DNA of 64,000 nucleotides from Gammaproteobacteria bacterium (GTDB lineage Bacteria > Pseudomonadota > Gammaproteobacteria > Enterobacterales > Alteromonadaceae): assembly GCA_018222985.1 (NCBI GenBank), contig JAAEZG010000005.1, forward strand, positions 62,001 to 126,000. Reading direction: 5' to 3'. Position 1 is the first letter of the stretch. Every line of letters starts with the position of its first letter. This document shows, in pieces, positions 4,312 through 38,314 of this stretch. Under the pieces are notes generated by a model, which saw only the letters and a program-made list of their open reading frames with translations, searched no databases and was not told where the DNA came from. The translations under genes and the position numbers were made by a program.

Positions 4312-4376
4312 AGTATAGACGCATTCTATGACAGTATTGTTACAGTGCTGTCACATTGCTGACATTTTTCTGTCAT
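4312..4376 (-). promoter_or_regulatory. Pho box array and -10 for pstCAB
   Basis: Reading on the minus strand, CTGTAAC-AATA-CTGTCAT (4345-4328) is followed by exactly 10 bases and then TATACT (4317-4312). This matches the known PhoB promoter layout, in which the box replaces the -35. Further TGACAG/TGTCAG half-sites continue in an 11-nt register to 4376, reaching into the last codons of asnA. Seen directly; PhoB binding is inferred. Confidence 0.8.
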
Positions 4377-5368
4377 GCAACGGCTTGTTGCGGGCTCAAT
4401 TTTGACCGTTGCGGCCACGACAGCTGGGGCGCTTGGGTGGCAGAAATGTGTGCCAACTGCAGCACCCACATGGCAACCCGTGACTGACCTATGCCACCAC
4501 CAATGCACTCTGGCAGCTCGCCATGAAGGAGTTGCTGGTGCCAAGGTTGTTGCAGCAGGCCATAACTTTTGTGCAGTGCAACTTGACGCTTTAGGGCGTC
4601 ACTGTTTACGCGAATTCCCATCGATGATAACTCAAGCGCGTCGTTAATCGGAGCGTGCCAAACCAATAAGTCGCCATTGAGGCCTGCCAAGCATTGGCCA
4701 CTGGCTGGGTGCTCAACTGGCGTGCTCCAATCATCATAATCAGCGGCACGGGCATCGTGTGGTGTGCCGTCTGTAAGTTCGCCGCCAATACCCATAAGAA
4801 ATACGGCTTTATGCAGCTTGGTAATTTCGTGCTCGCGTTGTTTGGGCGATAATTGTGGAAACATTTGGCGCAGCTGCTCTGCATGAATAAATACCACTTC
4901 TGATGCTAATTGACCGTCAGCTTCCGGTGAAAACTGCAGGTATAACGCACGCAGGGCCTGATAAATGTCACGCACCGTGGCTTTCAGCGTGTCTAATGAA
5001 CGCTCGGTTGGTTGAATAACACGTTCCCAGTCCCATTGTTCAACAAGCACAGAATGACGTTCGGTCAGTTGCTCTTCGTCAGCACGGATAGCTTTCATTT
5101 GCGCCACAATACCTTCGCCCGGTTGGCAACCATAATACGCTAGCACGCTGCGCTTCCACTTCGCCAACGAGTGCACAATTTCATAATCGCGCTGCTCGGC
5201 CCGAATGTGCACGGCAACCGCTCGCTCAGTACCACTAAGGTTATCTTGCACGCCGGAGTCTTTCGGCACCATCAGCGGTGCTTGCACTTCAGCTAACTGC
5301 AGTGTTTCGCAAAGCAGCTCGGTGAATTGTTGTTTTAGTCTCGCGACATCTTGTTGTTGTTTTAGCAT
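4373..5368 (-). CDS. asnA: Aspartate--ammonia ligase (asparagine synthetase A)
   Basis: Makes asparagine from aspartate, ammonia and ATP in the cytoplasm. At 331 aa it matches E. coli AsnA (330 aa) in length and in its diagnostic stretches: VQDNLSGTERAV, EIVHSLAKWKR, VEQWDWERV, DYDDWSTP, ELSSMGIRV and the C-terminal IGGGIGQSR. The ATG at 5368 has GGAG nine bases upstream. It is divergent from asnC, its usual regulator. The gene pair sits inside what is usually a contiguous pstSCAB region. Its 3' end overlaps the pstC Pho box array. Confidence 0.96.
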   Translation of the reverse strand: MLKQQQDVARLKQQFTELLCETLQLAEVQAPLMVPKDSGVQDNLSGTERAVAVHIRAEQRDYEIVHSLAKWKRSVLAYYGCQPGEGIVAQMKAIRADEEQLTERHSVLVEQWDWERVIQPTERSLDTLKATVRDIYQALRALYLQFSPEADGQLASEVVFIHAEQLRQMFPQLSPKQREHEITKLHKAVFLMGIGGELTDGTPHDARAADYDDWSTPVEHPASGQCLAGLNGDLLVWHAPINDALELSSMGIRVNSDALKRQVALHKSYGLLQQPWHQQLLHGELPECIGGGIGQSRVAMWVLQLAHISATQAPQLSWPQRSKLSPQQAVA

Positions 5369-10649: not shown

Positions 10650-10712
10650 TTGTCATATTTTTGACACAGGGACGTGATAATTTCATCCGTCAATTTGTCA
10701 TCAAGGCGTCAA
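10650..10712 (+). promoter_or_regulatory. Two Pho boxes upstream of the first Oar-like receptor
   Basis: TTGTCAT-ATTT-TTGACAC (10650-10667) is followed by 10 bases and then TAATTT (10678-10683). A second 7-4-7 element, TTGTCAT-CAAG-GCGTCAA, is at 10695-10712. The -10 is weaker than at pstS. The array is partly symmetric and could also act on the divergent lipoprotein gene. Identified by repeat spacing only. Confidence 0.65.
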
Positions 10713-14098: not shown

Positions 14099-14158
14099 GC
14101 CCTTTCTATTCAAGTCGTTTAAAAATTAGCCAAAACAAAATTCCAAACTATAATTCGC

Positions 14159-14192
14159 ATGACACCAAATTGTCACAAACAGTACTTAAACT
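14159..14192 (+). promoter_or_regulatory. Pho box and -10 for the second Oar-like receptor
   Basis: ATGACAC-CAAA-TTGTCAC (14159-14176) is followed by exactly 10 bases and then TAAACT (14187-14192), the same -10 hexamer and spacing as at pstS. The predicted transcript start near 14199 leaves a leader of about 50 bases before the ATG at 14251. Confidence 0.78.
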
Positions 14193-28935: not shown

Positions 28936-29880
28936 TTAGAACTTATGTTCGATACCTAGTGCAACATAACGCTGATTCACATCGATAGTGTCCAAATTAC
29001 GCCCAGTATACCAAGTGTAAACTTTGGTATTGCTGCCTAATTTGTAATCCACACCTGCAGCAATCGAGTCTTGCTCTCCATCAACGCTAAAGTCCATCAT
29101 TTGGTATTGCACTTTAAACGTGAAGTTCTGATACGGATATTTAACGCTGGCTACATAGCCGTCAGCTTCGGCGGTGCCATCTACTTGCTCTTGCTGCTGC
29201 CACATAAGACCAACTACTGCATCGGCAAGTTTGGTGTAACCCACTAGTCGCTCAACATCATAACCTTCAACTTCGCGGTCAATTGCAGCGCCTAAATAAA
29301 ATGAGGTATCGTCTAGGCCTTCGTCACCGTAGCTAATTGCTGTTGAGATACCATCGTTTACTGCTGGGTCGTCACTGGCAATATAGGTTGCCCCAAAACG
29401 GAACTGATTAAATGACGGTGAATAATAACTAACTGTATCGCTGGTGCGGTTTTCGCCTTCAAACAAGGCTTTTACGTCGGCCTCGTAATCGTTGAATAAA
29501 TCAATGTCGCCTTGCACGGTTTTCAGTACAGTGTCACGGCGGCCAATGGTCACTTCACCGAAGCTGCCTTTTAAACCAATGTACTGATTACGCGAACGAA
29601 GATTGTCTGAACCGCCCAAGTCAGCAAGGTCTACTTCCCATTCAAGTTGGTAGATAACTTCCAAGTCATCGTTAAGTTTAGCGCCGCCTTTTATCCCAAA
29701 GCGCGACGCGTTTGAGACCACATCAGTTTGCGAACCGTTGCCATCGTCGAGGTCGTTGCTTTGCAGTGACACATTGATTTTGCCGTAAATATCCCACGAA
29801 ATCGGCTCGTCGTTGGCGACTGCTGCATGAGATGCAACCGCTAATGTTAGTGCACTTAATGCCATTGGAAGTTTGTTCAT
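28936..29880 (-). CDS. Outer-membrane porin with Pho-type promoter
   Basis: A 314-aa general porin of the Gram-negative type. Signal peptide 1-22 (ALTLAVASHAAVA), then alternating amphipathic strands starting ISWDIYGKINVSLQ and containing SRFGIKGG, YQLEWEVDL and RNQYIGLKGSFGEVTIGRRDT, ending in the C-terminal strand VALGIEHKF. Many acidic residues lie in the loops. The large Pho-like array upstream suggests induction under phosphate starvation, comparable in role to PhoE or OprP, but sequence alone does not show anion selectivity. GGGGCTAGG precedes the ATG. Confidence 0.88.
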   Translation of the reverse strand: MNKLPMALSALTLAVASHAAVANDEPISWDIYGKINVSLQSNDLDDGNGSQTDVVSNASRFGIKGGAKLNDDLEVIYQLEWEVDLADLGGSDNLRSRNQYIGLKGSFGEVTIGRRDTVLKTVQGDIDLFNDYEADVKALFEGENRTSDTVSYYSPSFNQFRFGATYIASDDPAVNDGISTAISYGDEGLDDTSFYLGAAIDREVEGYDVERLVGYTKLADAVVGLMWQQQEQVDGTAEADGYVASVKYPYQNFTFKVQYQMMDFSVDGEQDSIAAGVDYKLGSNTKVYTWYTGRNLDTIDVNQRYVALGIEHKF

Positions 29881-29921
29881 AACCTAGCCCCACCAGAAAT
29901 TGGTTATCAGAAATATGTATA

Positions 29922-29939
29922 GCACGCAAATTTGCGTGC
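29922..29939. promoter_or_regulatory. 18-bp perfect palindrome in the porin leader
   Basis: GCACGCAAATTTGCGTGC is a perfect 9+9 palindrome 42 bases upstream of the porin ATG and downstream of the predicted Pho -10. It may be an operator for a dimeric regulator or form a small RNA stem-loop in the leader. Confidence 0.5.
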
Positions 29940-29964
29940 CGTACACATAGTTATCTGGGCGGGT

Positions 29965-30060
29965 ATGTTATGTCAGAAATATGACAGTTTCATGACTATA
30001 TGAAAGTTTTTTGTCTTTTTTATGACGTCTGCATGTCGTTTTAATGTCGCTATGATGACG
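29965..30060 (-). promoter_or_regulatory. Extended Pho-like half-site array and -10 for the porin
   Basis: On the minus strand TAGTCAT-GAAA-CTGTCAT (29998-29981) is followed by exactly 10 bases and TAACAT (29970-29965). An overlapping alternative is CTGTCAT-ATTT-CTGACAT. Upstream, six successive elements (CGTCAT, CGACAT, CGACAT, CGTCAT, AGACAA, TTTCAT) repeat with an exact 11-nt period from 30060 to 29995, beginning in the stop-codon region of the TPR gene. PhoB binding is inferred. Confidence 0.7.
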
Positions 30061-31321
30061 ATTGCATGTCAGCACGCAGTTCTTGTAAACGTGATTGCTG
30101 CTCTTGCTCTGCTTTAGCGTAACGCTCCCACTGACTAGCAGATTGTTTCGCTTCATCAAACTGCTTCGCCACAGCAAAGGCTTGTAGCGCTGCGTTGAAG
30201 TTTTCTAAGTTCAATTCAGCCATGCCAATCACTAAATGCATTGCACCAGGTTGCGTCAAGCCGCCTTTTTCAAGCGCCGCTCGCGCTGCATTAATTGCTT
30301 CTTGATTGCGCTCGGCATTCAATAGCAAGGTTGCACGTTGGGCATCAAACTCGCCGTTGTCACTTAAACTTGCAGCTTGTTGCAGTGCACTATTGGCTTT
30401 ATCGGTTTCACGTGCAGCAACCCAGGCTTGGGCCAACAGTTTGTAGTTACGCAAATTAGCTTCCACTGCACCGGTTGTCAGTGCTTTTTCCATAACTTGC
30501 CCAGCTTTAAATGGCACGTCATTGAAAAAGTATGTTTGCGCTAGGTTGAGTAAGTCTTGGCTGTTGGTTAAAAAGCCCTGCTGAAACGCAGTTTCAAGCA
30601 TAGCTAATTGCTTGGTTTCTTGTCCCAACTGACCAAATACACCGGCTAGTTGCACCCAATACTCTGGTTTATTGTAGTAACGCACCATCGCTTCAAGTAC
30701 CTCGGCAACCTGCGCCGTTTGTCCAAGCTCAAAATAAATTGCACGCTGCAGTACCAACCAATTTTCTTCCGGAATTTGGCGCTTATCTTGCACCGTTTTA
30801 ATGGCTTTACTTATCGGTGCCAAGGCCGCTTGATAGTCACCTTTTTGATACAGCGCTTGGGCTTTTAACACCCATGCTTTTTGCTGTTGTTCTGCTGGCA
30901 CCAATTGTTCCCATTGCGCTAAGAAATCTAACGCTTGTTCAAATTCACCTTGGCCCAAAGCAAGCTGCGCTAAACTAAACAATGTAGTCTGTTCTAGTGC
31001 TTCTGGAATTGCTTCTTCTTTGACGACTTTGGCGAAATAGGTTATCGCTTTAGCAATATTGTCTTGGCCGTAATACATGTAACCATAGAAGTTCCAGAGC
31101 ATGGCTCGCTCATAGCTATTCATGCTACTCAATTTGCTTTCCACGTTGGCAAGAACCTCTAGGCCCGCTTTCAAGTCACCATCATCGGCAAGCTGCTGAG
31201 CGCGTGCAAGTTGACTGTATACTTGCTCACGCAACGCTGGAGTTTTCTTACGCTCAGCACCAACCACGGGGCTGGACACCACAATACTGATAATTGCAGC
31301 AACAATGAGTAAATAACGCAT
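30050..31321 (-). CDS. TPR-repeat periplasmic protein of the TonB2 cluster
   Basis: 423 aa with a signal peptide (about 1-22, ending VVGA) and tetratricopeptide-like helix pairs through most of the length (for example LKAGLEVLANVE, YGYMYYGQDNIAKAITYFAK, ALYQKGDYQAALAPISKAI, LNLENFNAALQAFAVAKQF). It is the last gene of the run DUF3450-ttpC-exbB-exbD-tonB-TPR. A TPR protein in this position is a recurrent part of TtpC-type TonB systems, probably as a periplasmic scaffold; its exact role is not established here. GGAG precedes the ATG, 40 bases after tonB. Confidence 0.85.
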   Translation of the reverse strand: MRYLLIVAAIISIVVSSPVVGAERKKTPALREQVYSQLARAQQLADDGDLKAGLEVLANVESKLSSMNSYERAMLWNFYGYMYYGQDNIAKAITYFAKVVKEEAIPEALEQTTLFSLAQLALGQGEFEQALDFLAQWEQLVPAEQQQKAWVLKAQALYQKGDYQAALAPISKAIKTVQDKRQIPEENWLVLQRAIYFELGQTAQVAEVLEAMVRYYNKPEYWVQLAGVFGQLGQETKQLAMLETAFQQGFLTNSQDLLNLAQTYFFNDVPFKAGQVMEKALTTGAVEANLRNYKLLAQAWVAARETDKANSALQQAASLSDNGEFDAQRATLLLNAERNQEAINAARAALEKGGLTQPGAMHLVIGMAELNLENFNAALQAFAVAKQFDEAKQSASQWERYAKAEQEQQSRLQELRADMQSSS

Positions 31322-31361
31322 ATGCTTTCTCCTAACCCTCTGCTTTGCTAACCGTGTTGTG

Positions 31362-31970
31362 TTAACCGTCTATGGCAAAGGTTAACCGATTTTGTACACC
31401 TTCAACTTCAACCGGCTCGCCGTTGACAACACGAGGTTTGTATTTAAATTTCAGTACCGCGTCCATGGCAGCTTGATCAAAAATAGATTCGGGCTGCGCT
31501 TCAATGACATAAGGATCACGCACGGTACCTTGTTTGGTTACCGTAAAGCCCACCACTACATAACCTTCAATACCGCGCTGCAATGCTCGTCGCGGATAAA
31601 CCGCCTGTACTTTTACAATGGGTATGTACTCACCATCGCTGGTATCAAGACCAATACCGCCTGACAAACTAGTATCGGCTTGTATATCGGCAGAAAAATC
31701 AAACCCGGCGGCGTCTGCTTCTGCTGCGTCATTTTGCATCTGTGGTTGCGGCATATCCGGCGGTGGCTGCTCTGGTTCAGGCGGACGCTGTGGTTTGCGT
31801 TCCTTCTGCTGCACCACCTCTTCCGGCTTTACCCGAACGAAATCAAGCACACTGCCTTTCGGCGGTTCCGACATGGCGCCCTCACCGCCGGCAATCAGCG
31901 ACTGCATCAGGTAAAACAGCCCTGCTGTAATGGCAAACGCGGCAATAAGTGCGAGCAATAAACGTTTCAT
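31362..31970 (-). CDS. tonB: TonB-type energy transducer (TonB2)
   Basis: A short 202-aa TonB. One N-terminal anchor (about 5-30) is followed by a Pro/Glu/Lys-rich periplasmic linker (about 55-80). The C-terminal TonB domain (about 115-200) has YPRRALQRGIEGYVVVGFTV and FKYKPRVVNGEPV, which are characteristic. It couples the proton-motive force from ExbB/ExbD to outer-membrane receptors. The stop of exbD is two bases upstream. The cluster carries a Pho-type promoter, so the obvious candidate clients are the two Pho-box receptors at 10771 and 14251. Confidence 0.93.
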   Translation of the reverse strand: MKRLLLALIAAFAITAGLFYLMQSLIAGGEGAMSEPPKGSVLDFVRVKPEEVVQQKERKPQRPPEPEQPPPDMPQPQMQNDAAEADAAGFDFSADIQADTSLSGGIGLDTSDGEYIPIVKVQAVYPRRALQRGIEGYVVVGFTVTKQGTVRDPYVIEAQPESIFDQAAMDAVLKFKYKPRVVNGEPVEVEGVQNRLTFAIDG

Positions 31971-31972
31971 AA

Positions 31973-32380
31973 CTAGTCTTCTTGCGTTGCAATTGAGACA
32001 TCAAACACACCTGCCGCTCGCGCTGCATCCATCACTTTAATCAGCGTTTCTGTGGTGGCTTTTTTGTCGGCTTGAATAACCACCGAACCCTGCGGGTTTT
32101 CGGCATACAAGCGTTCAATGTTGGCTTGCACCGCACGCGCGTCCACTTGACGTTTGTTAATCCAAATTTCGCCACTGTCGCTAATGGCAACCAAAATATT
32201 GGCGCGGTCTTTTTGTACTGCGGTGGCTGCCTCTGGGCGGTTCACGTCAATACCTGACTCTTTCACAAAAGACGCGGTAACAATAAAGAAAATCAACATA
32301 ATAAACACCACGTCTAACATGGGGGTCATATCAATTTGCGCTTCTTCTTCGTCAACTAAATTTGCAAAATGCTGTTTCAT
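31973..32380 (-). CDS. exbD: ExbD/TolR-family proton-channel subunit
   Basis: 135 aa with a single membrane segment containing the essential Asp (Asp23 in MTPMLDVVFIMLIFF), then a periplasmic domain. It works with ExbB to harvest the proton gradient for TonB. It lies between exbB (12 bases upstream) and tonB (2 bases downstream). It is the TonB2-type short ExbD beginning MKQHFANLVDEEEAQIDMTP. Confidence 0.95.
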   Translation of the reverse strand: MKQHFANLVDEEEAQIDMTPMLDVVFIMLIFFIVTASFVKESGIDVNRPEAATAVQKDRANILVAISDSGEIWINKRQVDARAVQANIERLYAENPQGSVVIQADKKATTETLIKVMDAARAAGVFDVSIATQED

Positions 32381-32392
32381 CGCGCTTTACCT

Positions 32393-32944
32393 TTATGATT
32401 TAGCAAGCTGCTGCTCGCCGGAGTGATCAAGTAGCAAACGGTCTTCTAGCTTCAACCGTTCTCGTTTTGCGGTACGCTGTAACCATGTGGTCGCAAACAC
32501 GCCAGATAACGCACCGACCATGCCTGCCATGGTTGGAATAGTTGCCTTAGAAACCCCCGCCGCCATAGAGCGAGCGTTACCGGTGCCGGCTACGGCCATC
32601 ACGTCAAACACTTCAATCATGCCGGTAACGGTACCCATAAGACCTAACAGCGGACACAAGGCCACCATAGCTTGCAAAATAGGCAGATTGCCGCCTAGCG
32701 CTAAGGACACGCGCGAGATCATTGCGCCACGTATTTGCTCGGCTTGCCACGACGACCTGTCAGCGCGGTTATTCCAACTGCTAAGCGCGGCTTTGGTTGC
32801 CTGACGGTGACCACGGAGGTAATAAAAAATCCGCTCAAGAATCATCAGCCACATGACAAATATGAGCACTCCGATAACCAGCAGCACGTTGCCGCCGGTT
32901 TCGATGAAGTCTTGAATGGCATTGCTGAATTCAAGCAGAAACAT
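32393..32944 (-). CDS. exbB: ExbB/TolQ-family proton-channel subunit
   Basis: 183 aa, the short TonB2-type ExbB. One N-terminal helix (about 18-38) precedes the MotA/TolQ/ExbB domain with two helices. Diagnostic sequence is CPLLGLMGTVTGMIEVFDVMA and a GVSKATIPTMAGMVGALSGVF segment. It begins two bases after the stop of the larger ExbB-like gene, indicating tight co-translation. Confidence 0.95.
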   Translation of the reverse strand: MFLLEFSNAIQDFIETGGNVLLVIGVLIFVMWLMILERIFYYLRGHRQATKAALSSWNNRADRSSWQAEQIRGAMISRVSLALGGNLPILQAMVALCPLLGLMGTVTGMIEVFDVMAVAGTGNARSMAAGVSKATIPTMAGMVGALSGVFATTWLQRTAKRERLKLEDRLLLDHSGEQQLAKS

Positions 32945-32946
32945 AA

Positions 32947-34314
32947 TTAGTGACTCCGCTCAGAGCGCTCCGCAATAATGCCCGAGGCTTGTTCTTGCAA
33001 AATATGAACAATATGGCGGCTACGCGTATTTAGCGTGGCAAACAATAAGGTCATAGGAATAGCGACCACCAAACCAAGTACCGTGGTCACCAGGGCTTGA
33101 GAAATACCACCGGCCATGAGTTTCGGGTCGCCGGTACCAAATAACGTGATAGCTTGGAAGGTATTAATCATACCGGTTACCGTACCTAACAGACCCATAA
33201 GTGGGGCGACCACCGAGATAATCTTAATAAAGGTTAAGTTACGTTGAATTTTCGGTACTTCACGCAAAATAGCTTCGCTAAGTTTCAGCTCCAGCGTTTC
33301 GGTATCAACGTCTGGGTACTTGCGCTGCACGGCCATCACGCGACCTAACGGGTTGTTGTCATTTGGCTGGTCTTGCTTCATTTGACGCTTCACTTTGCCG
33401 CCCATAAGCGTCAGCGTAATAAAGCGTTCTAGCGCGATGATGAGGCCAATCGCTCCCAAGGCCAAAATGATGTACCCCACGGTACCGCCTTGATCGATGC
33501 GTTCACCTAAGTCGGGCGCTTGTACAAGTAGGCCAAGAATTGAGCCACCGGTTGGGTCCATGGCAAATTTAACTGGGTTGCTAGCGGCATTTTCTAGTGC
33601 GCTTACCGTGTCCAAGTAACGACCACTAGGCTGACGAATTAACTCAGCGACAGTGTCTGTGCCCGGCACCAATTCCAAATAACGACCGTCGGCAACCATG
33701 TTAAACGTGCCAACTCTAGTTACTTGCGTATTGGCTTTTTCACCGTTAGCCAAAGTCACTTCGGTATTGAACTGACTTACCTTGCCCGACTCCGTCATTT
33801 CTTGCAGTAACGCCAACCAAACCGATTCAATTTCAGCAATTGACGCTAGTTTTGAACTGCTACCCATTTTTTGCGCCAGCGCACTTAACTGCTCGCTGCG
33901 GCCCGGATATTCCACCGATACAAACGATGTTTGCAGTTTGCTGCTAGTGTCTCCAGCAACTTGCTGCAGCACCCCGAACAACTCTCGTAACGAACCCATG
34001 CGCTGGGTTAAGGTGTCGGTGACTGCCGCCAGCTCAGTTTCGTTTTTCTCAAATTGCGTTTCCAAGGTTTCACTGAGCTTTTCCAAACGATCACGTTCGG
34101 CAATAGCGTCACGCAAAATACGCGCTTGCTCATTTGCTTCAGCGCGAAAGCGCGCTTCACGCTGCTTATTTTCTTCGGTTTGCTCAAACTGACCTTGCTG
34201 CAATTGTTGCAGTAACTGATCTAAATTAATTGGCTCTTGCATAGCTGCATTTGCGCTAGAGCCCACTAGCAACACGGCAACAGCTAAAATACTGGTTAAA
34301 AGTTGCTTTAACAT
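32947..34314 (-). CDS. ttpC: TtpC-like MotA/TolQ/ExbB protein with periplasmic coiled-coil domain
   Basis: 455 aa. Signal or anchor (about 1-24), then a long periplasmic coiled coil (about 30-110, REARFRAEANEQARILRDAI), a periplasmic domain to about 265, and a C-terminal ExbB-like channel domain with APLMGLLGTVTGMINTFQAI. This architecture matches TtpC, the fourth component needed by TonB2 systems of Vibrio. It starts two bases after the DUF3450 gene. The symbol follows Vibrio usage and rests on architecture and gene order. Confidence 0.85.
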   Translation of the reverse strand: MLKQLLTSILAVAVLLVGSSANAAMQEPINLDQLLQQLQQGQFEQTEENKQREARFRAEANEQARILRDAIAERDRLEKLSETLETQFEKNETELAAVTDTLTQRMGSLRELFGVLQQVAGDTSSKLQTSFVSVEYPGRSEQLSALAQKMGSSSKLASIAEIESVWLALLQEMTESGKVSQFNTEVTLANGEKANTQVTRVGTFNMVADGRYLELVPGTDTVAELIRQPSGRYLDTVSALENAASNPVKFAMDPTGGSILGLLVQAPDLGERIDQGGTVGYIILALGAIGLIIALERFITLTLMGGKVKRQMKQDQPNDNNPLGRVMAVQRKYPDVDTETLELKLSEAILREVPKIQRNLTFIKIISVVAPLMGLLGTVTGMINTFQAITLFGTGDPKLMAGGISQALVTTVLGLVVAIPMTLLFATLNTRSRHIVHILQEQASGIIAERSERSH

Positions 34315-34316
34315 GG

Positions 34317-35105
34317 TTATTCTCCGGTGCTAGAGGTTGAAGTGAATACTGGCAACATCAGCAAATCTGGCGCTAACTGTTTACGCGCCACACGAATTGC
34401 CTCTTGTACATTGCTGGCGTAGCTTGAATCTAAAGCTTGCCACTCACGTTGGTCTTGATTCCACACGCCCATGCTCGAGCCATCACGAGTTTTGTAGAGC
34501 AGTACCGTACGCCCCATGCGTAAGAACTCAACGTCTTGTGGCTGCCCGGCAACCGTCATTTCACCGTTGTAGGCTTCAATGTTACGACCGTAATCAGCTT
34601 CTATCTGAAACGCTTCCATAACCCGGCGAAACTTCTCTGACACATCAACGTCGGCGCGGTCCATAAGCTCTCGCAAATTAGCTACGCGTTCAGTGCGCTC
34701 TTCGGGTAAAAACGGCACATCTAGCTGTACGAACTTATCTAGACTGTCAATCATGCGCAGCATCAACGGGGTAATTTGACGCTCAACAACACTCACTTCA
34801 TCAATCGATGCGTTGAGCTCGTCTTTCTCTGAAATCTGAGCATTGATTTGCTTTTGCAGCTGCTGGGTATAAACCTCTAGGCCTTGAATTTGGCGAGTGA
34901 TTTGCTTGTATTGCTGAATTCGCTCTTGCGTTGAGTCAGCAATTTTTTCAACTGTAAGCTGTGATGATTTAGCCGCGCTGTTTATCTTATTTGCAGCATC
35001 AACAACAGGCTCTAATGAGCTTTCTTGCGCAGCAAGCGAATAAGAGAAAAGCGGCGCGCTGCAGAGCGCGAATAGAACCACCGAAGAAATTAAGGAATGC
35101 TTCAT
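34317..35105 (-). CDS. DUF3450 periplasmic coiled-coil protein, first gene of the TonB2 operon
   Basis: 262 aa with a signal peptide (about 1-25, ending SLAAQ), a coiled coil (about 45-105, rich in Gln, Glu and Lys: QQYKQITRQIQGLEVYTQQL-type) and a C-terminal globular region with LRMGRTVLLYKTRDGSSMGVWN. DUF3450 proteins are consistently encoded beside TtpC-type ExbB/ExbD/TonB genes; the molecular role is unknown. It heads the operon. A triple Pho-type repeat and a 10-bp inverted repeat lie upstream. AAGG is seven bases from the ATG. Confidence 0.85.
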   Translation of the reverse strand: MKHSLISSVVLFALCSAPLFSYSLAAQESSLEPVVDAANKINSAAKSSQLTVEKIADSTQERIQQYKQITRQIQGLEVYTQQLQKQINAQISEKDELNASIDEVSVVERQITPLMLRMIDSLDKFVQLDVPFLPEERTERVANLRELMDRADVDVSEKFRRVMEAFQIEADYGRNIEAYNGEMTVAGQPQDVEFLRMGRTVLLYKTRDGSSMGVWNQDQREWQALDSSYASNVQEAIRVARKQLAPDLLMLPVFTSTSSTGE

Positions 35106-35113
35106 AACAATAC

Positions 35114-35144
35114 CTTGCGCATCTAATGAATGTTGATGCGCAAG
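35114..35144. promoter_or_regulatory. 10-bp inverted repeat overlapping the TonB2 operon promoter
   Basis: CTTGCGCATC (35114-35123) and GATGCGCAAG (35135-35144) form a perfect inverted repeat with 11-base spacing. It overlaps the predicted -10 (35147-35142), the start region and the base of the Shine-Dalgarno. This placement fits a repressor operator better than an RNA hairpin, because the predicted start would exclude most of the 5' arm. Confidence 0.5.
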
Positions 35145-35186
35145 ATACTGCAGTTATGTGACAGCTTGGTGACTGAAAAATGTCAG
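35142..35186 (-). promoter_or_regulatory. Triple Pho box and -10 for the TonB2 operon
   Basis: On the minus strand CTGACAT-TTTT-CAGTCAC-CAAG-CTGTCAC (35186-35158) gives three half-sites in exact 11-nt register. It is followed by exactly 10 bases and TATCTT (35147-35142). Geometry matches the pstS, pstC and phoB promoters in this window. It abuts the stop codon of the upstream channel gene. Confidence 0.78.
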
Positions 35187-36449
35187 TTATGTGTCAATAT
35201 GACGGTTTTGTTTGATTTGTGTGACCATTTCGCGCATATCCACGCCACTTGGATGCTGGAAAACGCGCAGCCCAAACTCGGGAAGTATCGATATAAGATG
35301 ATCAAAAATATCGGACTGAATGCCTTCGTACTCCACCCATTCTGTGGTTGTCGTAAAACAATACACTTCTAACGGTAAACCGTCAGCCGTAGGGTTCAAC
35401 TGACGCACCATTAAGGTCATATCTTGGTGCACGCGTGGGTGGCTTTGTAAGTACTCACGCACGTAAGCTCGAAACGTACCAATATTGCTAATACGGCGAG
35501 TGTTGACCGGCTCTTTGCCCTCGTCTTTTAACTTTTGGTTCCACTCGTCTATTTCTTTTTGCTTGCTCGCTAGATAGTCCTTAAGCAAGCGAAACCGATT
35601 GAGCTTTTCGCGCTCGTCATCTGCCAAAAAGTGCACACTGTTTTGGTCAAGCATAATACTACGCTTAACACGACGTCCGCCCGACTCTTGCATGCCCCGC
35701 CAGTTTTTAAATGGGTCGGAAATAAAACGTTTGGTCGGAATGGTCGATATGGTTTTATCCCAGTTTTGCACTTTGACGGTGTGTAATGCGATATCAATCA
35801 CATCGCCGTCAACACTTAGGTTTGGCATTTCAACCCAATCGCCAACGCGAATGATGTCGTTCGAGGTAATCTGCACACTCGCCACCAACGACAGCAGCGT
35901 GTCTTGAAACACCAACATAAGCACCGCTGCCATAGCGCCTAAGCCTGACAACAAAATCACCGGTGACTTATCAATAAGTGCTGCCACCACCAAAATGGTC
36001 GCGACCGCATAAATCGCAATTTTTACAACTTGAATATAACCCTTAATGGGCTTCTCATGCGCATCAGGTTGACGTTCGTATACGGTATTGACGACGGTTA
36101 AAACACCGCTAATGGCACGGCCGATGGTGAGAATAATAAACGCCGTACAAACGTTGTTCACCACTACCACGACTTCTTCGGGTAAGTTAGGCACAGAACT
36201 AATGCCATAGGTGATCACTAATGCAGGGACGACATTCGCTAGCCGCGCAATAATATTGCGCTCAAACAATTGTTTGTCATGCCCTGCTGGCGTGTACGAA
36301 ATAACCGTTAACACCCCACGCATGAGAATTTTCTTAACCACAAAATTAGCTATCCATGCTCCAAGCAATAACAGCGCAAGCTTCACGATAGTGTCCATAT
36401 CGGGGTGTTCTGACAGCAATTTCTGCCACTGTTCAAATTGTTCTTGCAT
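35187..36449 (-). CDS. ybdG: MscS-family mechanosensitive channel, YbdG/MscM type
   Basis: About 420 aa; inner-membrane channel that protects against osmotic downshock. Several N-terminal helices precede the pore-lining MscS core (LLSGLGAMAAVLMLVFQDTLLSLVA, split) and the beta domain VGDWVEMPNLSVDGDVIDI. The YbdG-specific segments FKNWRGMQESGGRRVKRSI, NIGTFRAYVREYLQSHPR and DMTLMVRQL match E. coli YbdG closely. The frame extends to a GTG at 36509, but the ATG at 36449 aligns with the E. coli start (MQ-); neither has a strong Shine-Dalgarno, so the start is uncertain. Confidence 0.88.
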   Translation of the reverse strand: MQEQFEQWQKLLSEHPDMDTIVKLALLLLGAWIANFVVKKILMRGVLTVISYTPAGHDKQLFERNIIARLANVVPALVITYGISSVPNLPEEVVVVVNNVCTAFIILTIGRAISGVLTVVNTVYERQPDAHEKPIKGYIQVVKIAIYAVATILVVAALIDKSPVILLSGLGAMAAVLMLVFQDTLLSLVASVQITSNDIIRVGDWVEMPNLSVDGDVIDIALHTVKVQNWDKTISTIPTKRFISDPFKNWRGMQESGGRRVKRSIMLDQNSVHFLADDEREKLNRFRLLKDYLASKQKEIDEWNQKLKDEGKEPVNTRRISNIGTFRAYVREYLQSHPRVHQDMTLMVRQLNPTADGLPLEVYCFTTTTEWVEYEGIQSDIFDHLISILPEFGLRVFQHPSGVDMREMVTQIKQNRHIDT

Positions 36450-36583
36450 AGGTGTCTTTGGTTTCCATATTTTGCACAACGCGGCTTTTAACATAGCGGA
36501 ATTATGCACTATTCACAACGCCGTAAATATTGCGCAACGCGCTAAATTCCAGTACCTTGTTTGAAAGCTTTCAAGGACCCCGC

Positions 36584-38314
36584 ATGGCAACGTCGAGTAT
36601 TTCAAAATCGCTGCTTACTAATGTACTTTCAGTGTACTTCGTATTGACACTGGTAGTGACGTCAGTGCAGGTGGTCGGTGAATACTACGATACCAAAAAA
36701 ATGTTGGTGCAAGAGCTCAACAACCAGCAAAGTACCTTTAGCCATTCCCTAGCCCGCTCGCTGTGGGAATATAATACCCCCCAAATTGACGCCATTGCCG
36801 ACGGGCTGATTAACATACCCGCTATTGCTGGTTTGGTGATTCGCGATGATACCGGGCGCATTGTCAGTCAACTTGGGCGTACGCCGCCGTTACGCACCTT
36901 TCCTTCAGTTGCCGCAGACAGCTACGAATTGCCCGAACGTGACGGTGTTTTCGGTTACTACGCCAAATTGGTTTTTGAATTTTCTGGCAATTCCACCCAA
37001 GTAGGCGACGTAACCCTGTATACAACCCGGGATATTGCCATTGAGCGTATCAAGGTAAGTTTATATTTTATTATTGGCTCAGCGATTATCAAAAGTACGT
37101 TTTTGATCATGCTGTTCAGTTTTGCCTTTCACCGCATGCTTAACCGCCCCATGCGTGATCTTATTGGGCAAATAAAGAACTTCCGGTTAGATGACCTAGA
37201 GCATTCGAAGCTTCATTTACGCAACCTAAGAAGCACCGAATTTGTCTTGCTTGAACAGGCCTATAACCAGCTTGTTGAAAACTTAAAAGAATACCAACAA
37301 AACCTTGAAAAAACACAAAAGCAATTGCTCCATGCCAACCAAAAACTGGATGAGCACAATAATATTCTTGAACAAGAAGTGGCTCGTAAAACCAGTAGCT
37401 TAAGCCGTGTATTGGTGGATATTGAGCGGCAAAAAAATGACCTAGAAGTGCGCCAAGAATCGTTAGAAAACGAAATTCGCCAGCGCCGCATAATTGAATC
37501 TGATTTACGTGAAATTAATACCCGTTTACAAGAGTCTTTAAGTGCTCTTGAACGTGCACAAGATCAATTAATTGAATCGGAAAAAATGGCGTCATTGGGT
37601 GGTTTAGTTGCGGGTATGACCCACGACGTAAACACCCCCATTGGTATTTCGGTAACCGCGGCAACCTACATTCGTGATCAACTTGTTGAAGCCGAGCAAG
37701 CACTCACCAACAAAAAGCTCACGCAAGCCCAATTGAAAAAAGTATTTAAATTGAGCAAAGAGTCGCTCGACCTGTTAGAAAGCAACTTAGCGCGTGCGTC
37801 TGACCTTATTAGTAGCTTCAAACAAGTCGCGGTTGATCAAACCTCTGAAGCGATTCGCGACATAAATATCAAACAATATATTCAAGGCGTTATTCAAACC
37901 TTAAAGCCGCGCTTTAAACCACTGAAACCGAACATTGAAGTGCATTGTGCGGACGATATCGATGTGCGTTGCCCAGCAGGTGCAGTGGCGCAAATTTTCA
38001 CAAACTTAATTATTAACTCATTGATTCATGGCTTTGAAAACAAGCAGGATGGGGAAATTAAAATAAGCATTGAGCGTGATGATAACCGTCTGCTCGTTAC
38101 CTATTCGGACAACGGTAAAGGTTTGGACAAAAAGCAATTAGAACAGCTGTTCGACCCCTTCTTTACCACCAAAGTGCAGCAAGGCGGTAGCGGCCTTGGC
38201 ACGCATATCATTCGCAATTTGGTGACCCAAACACTTAACGGCACCATTGACGCGCAAAGTGAACCTGGCCAAGGCCTAACCTACCGTATGGCTCTAGCCA
38301 TCACATTTATTTAG
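36584..38314 (+). CDS. Orphan membrane sensor histidine kinase
   Basis: About 576 aa. Two membrane helices (about 10-32 and 165-188) flank a periplasmic sensor domain. A long coiled coil follows (about 225-330, including LLHANQKLDEHNNILEQEVA). The phospho-acceptor is His347 in the unusual H-box GMTHDVNTPIGIS. The ATPase domain has the N-box NSLIHGFE and DNGKGLD, GGSGLGTHI. AAGGA precedes the ATG at 36584; an upstream TTG is not needed. No response regulator is adjacent, so the output is unknown. rdgC starts 11 bases downstream. Confidence 0.88.
   Translation: MATSSISKSLLTNVLSVYFVLTLVVTSVQVVGEYYDTKKMLVQELNNQQSTFSHSLARSLWEYNTPQIDAIADGLINIPAIAGLVIRDDTGRIVSQLGRTPPLRTFPSVAADSYELPERDGVFGYYAKLVFEFSGNSTQVGDVTLYTTRDIAIERIKVSLYFIIGSAIIKSTFLIMLFSFAFHRMLNRPMRDLIGQIKNFRLDDLEHSKLHLRNLRSTEFVLLEQAYNQLVENLKEYQQNLEKTQKQLLHANQKLDEHNNILEQEVARKTSSLSRVLVDIERQKNDLEVRQESLENEIRQRRIIESDLREINTRLQESLSALERAQDQLIESEKMASLGGLVAGMTHDVNTPIGISVTAATYIRDQLVEAEQALTNKKLTQAQLKKVFKLSKESLDLLESNLARASDLISSFKQVAVDQTSEAIRDINIKQYIQGVIQTLKPRFKPLKPNIEVHCADDIDVRCPAGAVAQIFTNLIINSLIHGFENKQDGEIKISIERDDNRLLVTYSDNGKGLDKKQLEQLFDPFFTTKVQQGGSGLGTHIIRNLVTQTLNGTIDAQSEPGQGLTYRMALAITFI

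Follow-up and report, generated by a model that had tools for sequence, protein, structure and literature searches.

The six-gene ttpB-ttpC-exbB-exbD-tonB-ttpD operon on the minus strand of the window (the whole stretch of 64,000 nucleotides that was analysed) probably has a PhoB-dependent promoter in which an array of half-sites stands in for the -35 element and an RNA stem acts as an insulator, a combined reading to which we give a probability of about 0.65. Taken separately, the control of this promoter by PhoB is predicted from the sequence with high confidence. The stem between the -10 box and the Shine-Dalgarno region of ttpB, which was absent from the initial annotation, is likely the most original part of the analysis.

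The first gene of the operon, ttpB-like (34317-35105), encodes a DUF3450 protein (Pfam PF11932, E 4.5e-88) and takes its name from V. vulnificus TtpB2. It is followed by a ttpC-like gene for a MotA/TolQ/ExbB protein (32947-34314; PF01618, weak PF11932), exbB (32393-32944; PF01618, E 1.6e-20), exbD (31973-32380; PF02472, E 3.9e-33), tonB (31362-31970; PF03544, E 4.9e-20) and a ttpD-like gene for a TPR protein (30050-31321; Pfam TPR families), the order in Pfam terms being DUF3450, MotA/ExbB, ExbB, ExbD, TonB_C, TPR. The N-terminal part of the ttpC-like protein weakly matches DUF3450 (E 5.7e-4, under Pfam's cut-off), and ttpB and ttpC look as if they shared a periplasmic module. An mscS-family gene (35187-36509, assigned by Pfam) lies in tandem upstream, its stop codon being 81 nt away from the ATG of ttpB, and a porin gene (28936-29880) lies downstream, both on the minus strand like the operon. 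The window also has pstS, pstC and genes for a PhoB-like regulator, a kinase and an Exo_endo_phos protein, as well as two receptors in which CarboxypepD_reg and plug domains are found; pst, phoB and phoR are presumed names, given on the basis of Pfam and gene order. Pho-box-like sites are also seen ahead of both CarboxypepD_reg TonB receptor genes, at 10650-10690 (plus strand), with 8-10 nt between the site of this first receptor and a -10-like hexamer, and at 14148-14192 (plus strand).

The pho box of the E. coli type is made of 7-bp direct repeats with 4-bp spacers, and takes the place of the -35 element. At the ttpB promoter, the initial annotation had described three half-sites in 11-nt register, then a 10-nt gap, TATCTT and 36 nt before the DUF3450 start, and every letter and coordinate of this description matches on re-reading of the minus strand: CTGACAT (35186-35180) is followed by the spacer TTTT, CAGTCAC (35175-35169) by the spacer CAAG, and CTGTCAC (35164-35158) by the 10 nt ATAACTGCAG, after which the -10-like hexamer TATCTT (35142-35147) lies 36 nt 5' of the ATG at 35105. 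The array is longer than these three, with a fourth half-site, TTGACAC (35197-35191), one 11-nt step further upstream. The PhoB-type array of four half-sites thus covers 35158-35197, and the leader reads TTGACAC-ATAA-CTGACAT-TTTT-CAGTCAC-CAAG-CTGTCAC-ATAACTGCAG-TATCTT, 36 nt, ATG. The array extends into the end of mscS, whose stop codon TAA is at 35189-35187; the spacers ATAA and TTTT are AT-rich and CAAG is not. The E. coli-type box differs in being a single box of two repeats, whereas four half-sites and a -10 hexamer overlapping an RNA stem are found here.

Such arrays hardly arise by chance, as judged from 20 dinucleotide shuffles of the window. Five three-half-site arrays scoring at least 16/21 are present in the 64-kb window, versus 0.05 per shuffle, and they are confined to three places, namely the ttpB site, the porin promoter and, on both strands, the promoter region of pstC. 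At a threshold of at least 17/21, three arrays (pstC region on the plus strand, porin, ttpB site) compare with 0.0 in shuffles, and for four half-sites at a threshold of at least 21/28 the numbers are four and 0.0, the ttpB site and the plus strand of the pstC region each contributing two registers. The distance of 10 nt from array to hexamer is common to the ttpB promoter, the Pho promoter of pstC used as the reference site (4312-4356, minus strand) and the Pho promoter of the porin gene (29965-30009, minus strand), the latter consisting of three half-sites, 10 nt and a -10 hexamer. As side observations, the second array of the pstC region has four half-sites (plus strand 4326-4387, 23/28) and points antisense into an asnA-like gene, and a CTGTCA-type half-site lies 10 nt before a -10-like hexamer in the porin leaders (L066-L089) of 24/24 genomes with a porin match, the weakest porin array being that of G014.

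Conservation upstream of DUF3450 orthologues, the check named in the initial annotation, was found throughout the genus, with a match to an independent matrix at p <= 0.01 in 25/25 Pseudidiomarina leaders. Among the 26 Pseudidiomarina genomes searched, the orthologue was found in 25 and a second, paralogous match also in 25 (G020 being the exception), and the leaders of these 25 paralogues were all retrieved for comparison. The three-half-site score exceeds shuffles at p <= 0.004, and the four-half-site score at p <= 0.001, in each of the 25 orthologous leaders, which all carry a -10-like hexamer (TATCTT, TATCGT, TATTGT or TAAAGT) exactly 10 nt after the proximal half-site. By the same plain half-site counts, paralogue leaders stand out in 1/25 cases with three half-sites (p < 0.01) and in 3/25 with four (p <= 0.01).

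The independent matrix was built from 42 sites of pstC and porin leaders (21 each, of the 24 found for each; pstC was not found in G012), with no TonB2 site among them and with six near-duplicates omitted from the 48 pstC/porin sites. At a shuffle p <= 0.01 it recognizes 25/25 leaders in Pseudidiomarina, 12/12 in Idiomarina and 44/44 in Alteromonadaceae (44 of 45 leaders scored, L196 being omitted with 316 nt upstream only). The loci of these last two groups were drawn from the 80 best of 346 relatives and thus do not sample the whole family. Further genomes of the order that have a close orthologue gave 14 leaders, of which 12 pass and the other two, L228 being one of them, have p = 0.012; G218 of this set appears identical to L183 of the 44, so that the two sets are not fully separate. 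By contrast, 0/25 paralogous TonB leaders pass at p <= 0.01, with scores of -14.5 to -2.2 compared with 6.3 to 17.9 for the orthologous leaders, and neither does any of the 15 leaders of a more distant DUF3450 group, several of which have coding sequence close upstream. The paralogous TonB leader (L034-L038, L090-L109) is itself strikingly conserved, reading TTGATTAAACTC...CGTCACTCAAATAACTGG...TCAAATTGGTTGGGAACT in most cases, without a matrix-level Pho or Fur box.

Within the window, the matrix ranks its sites, best first, as pstC, porin, pstS, pstC shifted, phoB, the site of the second receptor (14148-14192) in sixth place and the ttpB site; pstC and porin stand at the top by construction, since both served in training, and the other rows were not trained on. 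When a sequence model of the training sites was searched against the 2.44-Mb genome, six matches reached E <= 10, every one of them in the Pho island on contig C10, the ttpB site being the fifth of the six with E = 1.2, which is not significant alone (150/621 candidates scored). One genome, G014, is without the TonB2 operon: mscS lies there directly beside the porin gene (L134, G014:C5:27000-39000), and pst, phoB and the first receptor are kept. This is a clean loss.

The initial annotation had also assigned this operon to the Pho response rather than to the iron response, and had noticed no Fur-like box. The best match to the Fur consensus is indeed never above shuffles in the orthologous leaders (0/25 at p <= 0.05), and in silico the matrix conservation, the contrast with the paralogue and the absent Fur box speak for the Pho side. 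The paralogous TonB operon gave the same Fur count, with 0/25 leaders above shuffles at p <= 0.05; on these two counts, iron control was rejected for either TonB operon. The broader statement, that energisation of outer-membrane import becomes part of the Pho response, is retained as a prediction for one of the two TonB systems and not for energisation as such. Two TonB_C matches were found in the assembly, which is 94% complete, the second lying on contig C2 near a paralogous DUF3450 gene. The narrower wording is more exact, since the operon of this second TonB gene is a paralogous one that lacks a Pho box.

It is very unlikely, by our estimate, that the array is a chance occurrence or the site of another OmpR-family regulator, with the operon being iron-responsive or constitutive. 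We infer PhoB binding from the array, which leaves some room for another protein; the V. vulnificus TonB2 operon, with the same gene order, is described as Fur-controlled in the part of the source consulted (PMC6957404), and four half-sites reach p <= 0.01 in those 3/25 paralogue leaders as well. The matrix results, with conservation over three groups, argue against this explanation, and so do the layout in common with pstC and the count of 0/25 leaders with a Fur box above shuffles. Under PhoB control, the operon would be made in phosphate shortage together with pst, phoB, the general porin and the receptor genes carrying similar boxes.

The second feature of this promoter is the predicted stem of 13 bp, with an energy of -19.1 kcal/mol and a z of -6.07 versus shuffles, which was also found as an inverted repeat. 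Its 5' arm, TATCTTGCGCATC (35135-35147, minus strand), consists of the -10 hexamer and the 7 nt leading to the predicted transcription start, and its 3' arm, GATGCGCAAGGTA (35111-35123, minus strand), holds the Shine-Dalgarno AAGG at 35116-35113. In E. coli promoters, transcription starts about seven bases after the -10 hexamer. In the longer RNA, the predicted pairing reaches the start codon. By sequence and predicted fold, the layout is of the T4 gene e type, with the -10 in the 5' strand and the ribosome-binding site in the 3' strand. No known RNA family accounts for the stem: the Rfam search of the window at 29000-37000 gave two matches, both under their family thresholds. A terminator was rejected too, since no T-run follows the stem and the gap between mscS and ttpB gave no hit in the terminator scans.

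An arm-to-arm test (z < -2) detects the pairing in 24/25 TonB2 leaders of Pseudidiomarina. Among the other Pho leaders of this genus, it is found in 7/24 for porin and 2/24 for pstC, and in none of the 22 phoB and 15 TBDR1 leaders; a stem general to all Pho promoters was rejected, as it is rare or unseen in the pstC, phoB and TBDR1 leaders. Outside Pseudidiomarina, 2/51 TonB2 leaders are positive (Idiomarina 1/12, Alteromonadaceae 1/39). These counts are without the leaders missing the search pattern, namely 3/25 for phoB, 10/25 for TBDR1 and 6/45 for Alteromonadaceae.

The alignment of 24 leaders, 17 of them distinct (G015, whose leader is 73 nt, was left out), provides further support for the stem. 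In the predicted register, 91.2% of the cells are paired, versus 22.9-57.3% with the partner slid, and four stem pairs show changes on both sides (11 cells), versus 0-2 when slid. A shuffle control was also exceeded; the slid control is the better one, because related sequences can exceed shuffles without any structure. On the ttpB tree, parsimony gives columns 10 and 32 as the best covarying pair, with four changes on the left and two on the right, and columns 13 and 29 have more changes (5 and 3) with poorer pairing. The arms vary together between genomes, as GCGCATC/GATGCGC, GCACA/TGTGC and GCAG/CTGC, and as CCCTAT/ATAGGG in G015. The pairing is not perfect everywhere: one pair between the -10 and the Shine-Dalgarno sequence is broken in 3/17 distinct sequences (G001, G006, G016), the inner two stem pairs fail in 5/17 and 7/17, and a C-C mismatch (or bulge) occurs in the stem of three genomes. 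The third -10 base pairs its Shine-Dalgarno base as U-G in 16/17 distinct sequences.

How such a stem could act follows from where a transcript begins. A transcript from mscS would contain both arms, so that the Shine-Dalgarno region of ttpB would be paired with the -10 sequence and ttpB left untranslated, whereas a transcript starting some 7-8 nt after TATCTT would be without the 5' arm and its ribosome-binding site would be freer. The genes ttpB, ttpC, exbB, exbD and tonB are spaced 2-12 nt apart, so a blocked ttpB could also damp the later genes through coupling or polarity. On this model, the stem may well insulate ttpB against read-through transcripts, a proposal held with somewhat less assurance than the promoter reading as a whole. 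The stricter proposal, that the -10/start region of a PhoB promoter pairs with the ribosome-binding site in such a way that only transcripts born there can be translated, that compensatory mutation has kept this pairing genus-wide and that the seven porin leaders have a similar one, seems to us evenly poised.

The predicted accessibility of the Shine-Dalgarno sequence (taken as the 4-nt AGGT/AGGG) points in the same direction. In the window, openness is 0.00 in the long RNA versus 0.44 in the RNA with the Pho start. In all 24 Pseudidiomarina genomes computed, openness does not exceed 0.26 in the long RNA and is higher in the short RNA, the difference being larger than 0.1 in 23 of them, and a difference of this size is seen elsewhere in 1/12 Idiomarina and 1/38 Alteromonadaceae leaders; G023 and 7/45 Alteromonadaceae leaders are without a value. 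Openness is nevertheless a weak guide to translation, since its predicted values are modest in the Pho-start RNA (0.21-0.56) and since 13/38 Alteromonadaceae leaders fall below 0.1 in both RNAs.

The gene neighbourhood supplies a presumed source of read-through, namely mscS, which in 24/25 Pseudidiomarina loci lies in tandem and has its stop codon 71-122 nt upstream of the ATG; the terminator scan found no terminator between mscS and ttpB in these 24. In all 12 Idiomarina loci, a histidine kinase gene in divergent orientation lies upstream. In Alteromonadaceae, a same-strand reading frame of more than 700 codons lies upstream in 40/45 loci, corresponding to a TonB receptor in the one case shown (L171), and a terminator-like site is found upstream in 24/44. 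This pattern of neighbours and terminators fits a proposed lock that keeps out read-through, comparable to that of T4 gene e. Three loci contradict a strict rule by which the stem would accompany a tandem mscS and no other arrangement: in G001 mscS is in tandem and the stem is nonetheless poor (z -0.26), G015 keeps a stem of unrelated sequence (arm-to-arm z -3.57, whole-leader fold z -0.51) despite a receptor-like gene and a terminator upstream, and the stem is present (z -4.0) in L167, an Idiomarina locus with the divergent neighbour. Many Alteromonadaceae leaders (L168-L214) have, after the predicted start and ahead of the ribosome-binding site, a small variable hairpin followed by a T-rich stretch, attenuator-like (as in L208 and L213).

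Two other explanations of the inverted repeat have to be weighed. The promoter could be a plain Pho promoter and the repeat a DNA operator placed over the -10 region for another regulator, and the arms do straddle the predicted start, a usual position for an operator. An operator would be expected to keep its letters, however, whereas the letters of the arms co-vary between genomes, and G-U pairs, which suit an RNA helix and break DNA symmetry, are common; this explanation is unlikely. The Pho start could alternatively be located upstream of TATCTT, in which case every transcript would carry the stem and something would have to open it, as in an RNA switch. The strength and good conservation of the stem would suit such a device, as would its presence in one Idiomarina with a divergent neighbour, and read-through from mscS is presumed. 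Array and TATCTT are 10 nt apart, just as the corresponding elements are at pstC and porin, which puts the predicted start inside the 5' arm or at its end and counts against the switch. The leader moreover contains no sigma-70 promoter-like pair, the two pairs found in the 1.8 kb scanned being both inside mscS, and no Rfam family is above threshold at 29000-37000. The switch is thus improbable as well, and the stem as an insulator of a PhoB-dependent promoter is preferred.

In the parts of the literature that were found, TonB2-type systems are treated as iron systems. The Pho version recurs in Pseudidiomarina, Idiomarina, Alteromonas and relatives, which would imply a second Ton motor built when phosphorus is scarce. 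This motor would presumably import large phosphorus-containing molecules via TonB receptors, and the receptor genes in question sit beside pst and carry similar boxes. A Pho-type TonB2 system would give a direct handle on organic phosphorus feeding by these marine bacteria. The hairpin, if the proposal is true, would be a compact means to make an operon deaf to the read-through of its neighbour. In the open-licence literature, as far as its consulted parts go, no paper was found that describes a TonB2-type operon of Alteromonadales under Pho control, or a Pho promoter that encodes a lock of the ribosome-binding site, and the parts seen of PMC9040609, PMC3400609, PMC2996285 and PMC5343134 hold nothing on this subject.

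A PhoB-linked TonB operon as such is already known in Pseudomonas aeruginosa, according to the sections consulted of two papers on the PUMA3 system (PMC4971064, PMC7035377). The exbB2-exbD2-tonB4 genes are expressed there from the phdA promoter upon phosphate starvation, with a pho box, and this promoter requires both the ECF sigma factor VreI and PhoB and has separate -35 and -10 elements. Both systems thus comprise a phosphate-starvation TonB/ExbB/ExbD set adjoining a putative porin gene, the one here being predicted; ttpB, ttpC and ttpD are not named, and a hairpin is not described, in those sections. The closest counterpart in gene content is the V. vulnificus TonB2 operon, ttpB2-ttpC2-exbB2-exbD2-tonB2-ttpD2, which has the same six gene kinds in the same order, DUF3450 first and TPR last. 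As far as the part of the report consulted shows, it carries a putative Fur box and is induced under iron limitation (PMC6957404), in contrast to the Pho array and the absence of a Fur box at the ttpB operon here. The Vibrio TonB3 system, also a six-gene set, is described in the same part of that source as not regulated by iron limitation (PMC6957404), and differs in that a receptor gene heads its operon.

For the stem, the comparison is with gene e of phage T4, for which the promoter-strand lock is documented in the part of the source available (PMC3014915). In T4, the ribosome-binding site is covered by an RNA helix whose 5' strand is specified by the promoter itself; the block on longer transcripts is about 100-fold, and transcripts from the late promoter, which are without the 5' strand, are well translated (PMC3014915). 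The setting differs, with a late phage promoter on one side and, as predicted from sequence, a PhoB-type promoter of a chromosomal operon on the other.
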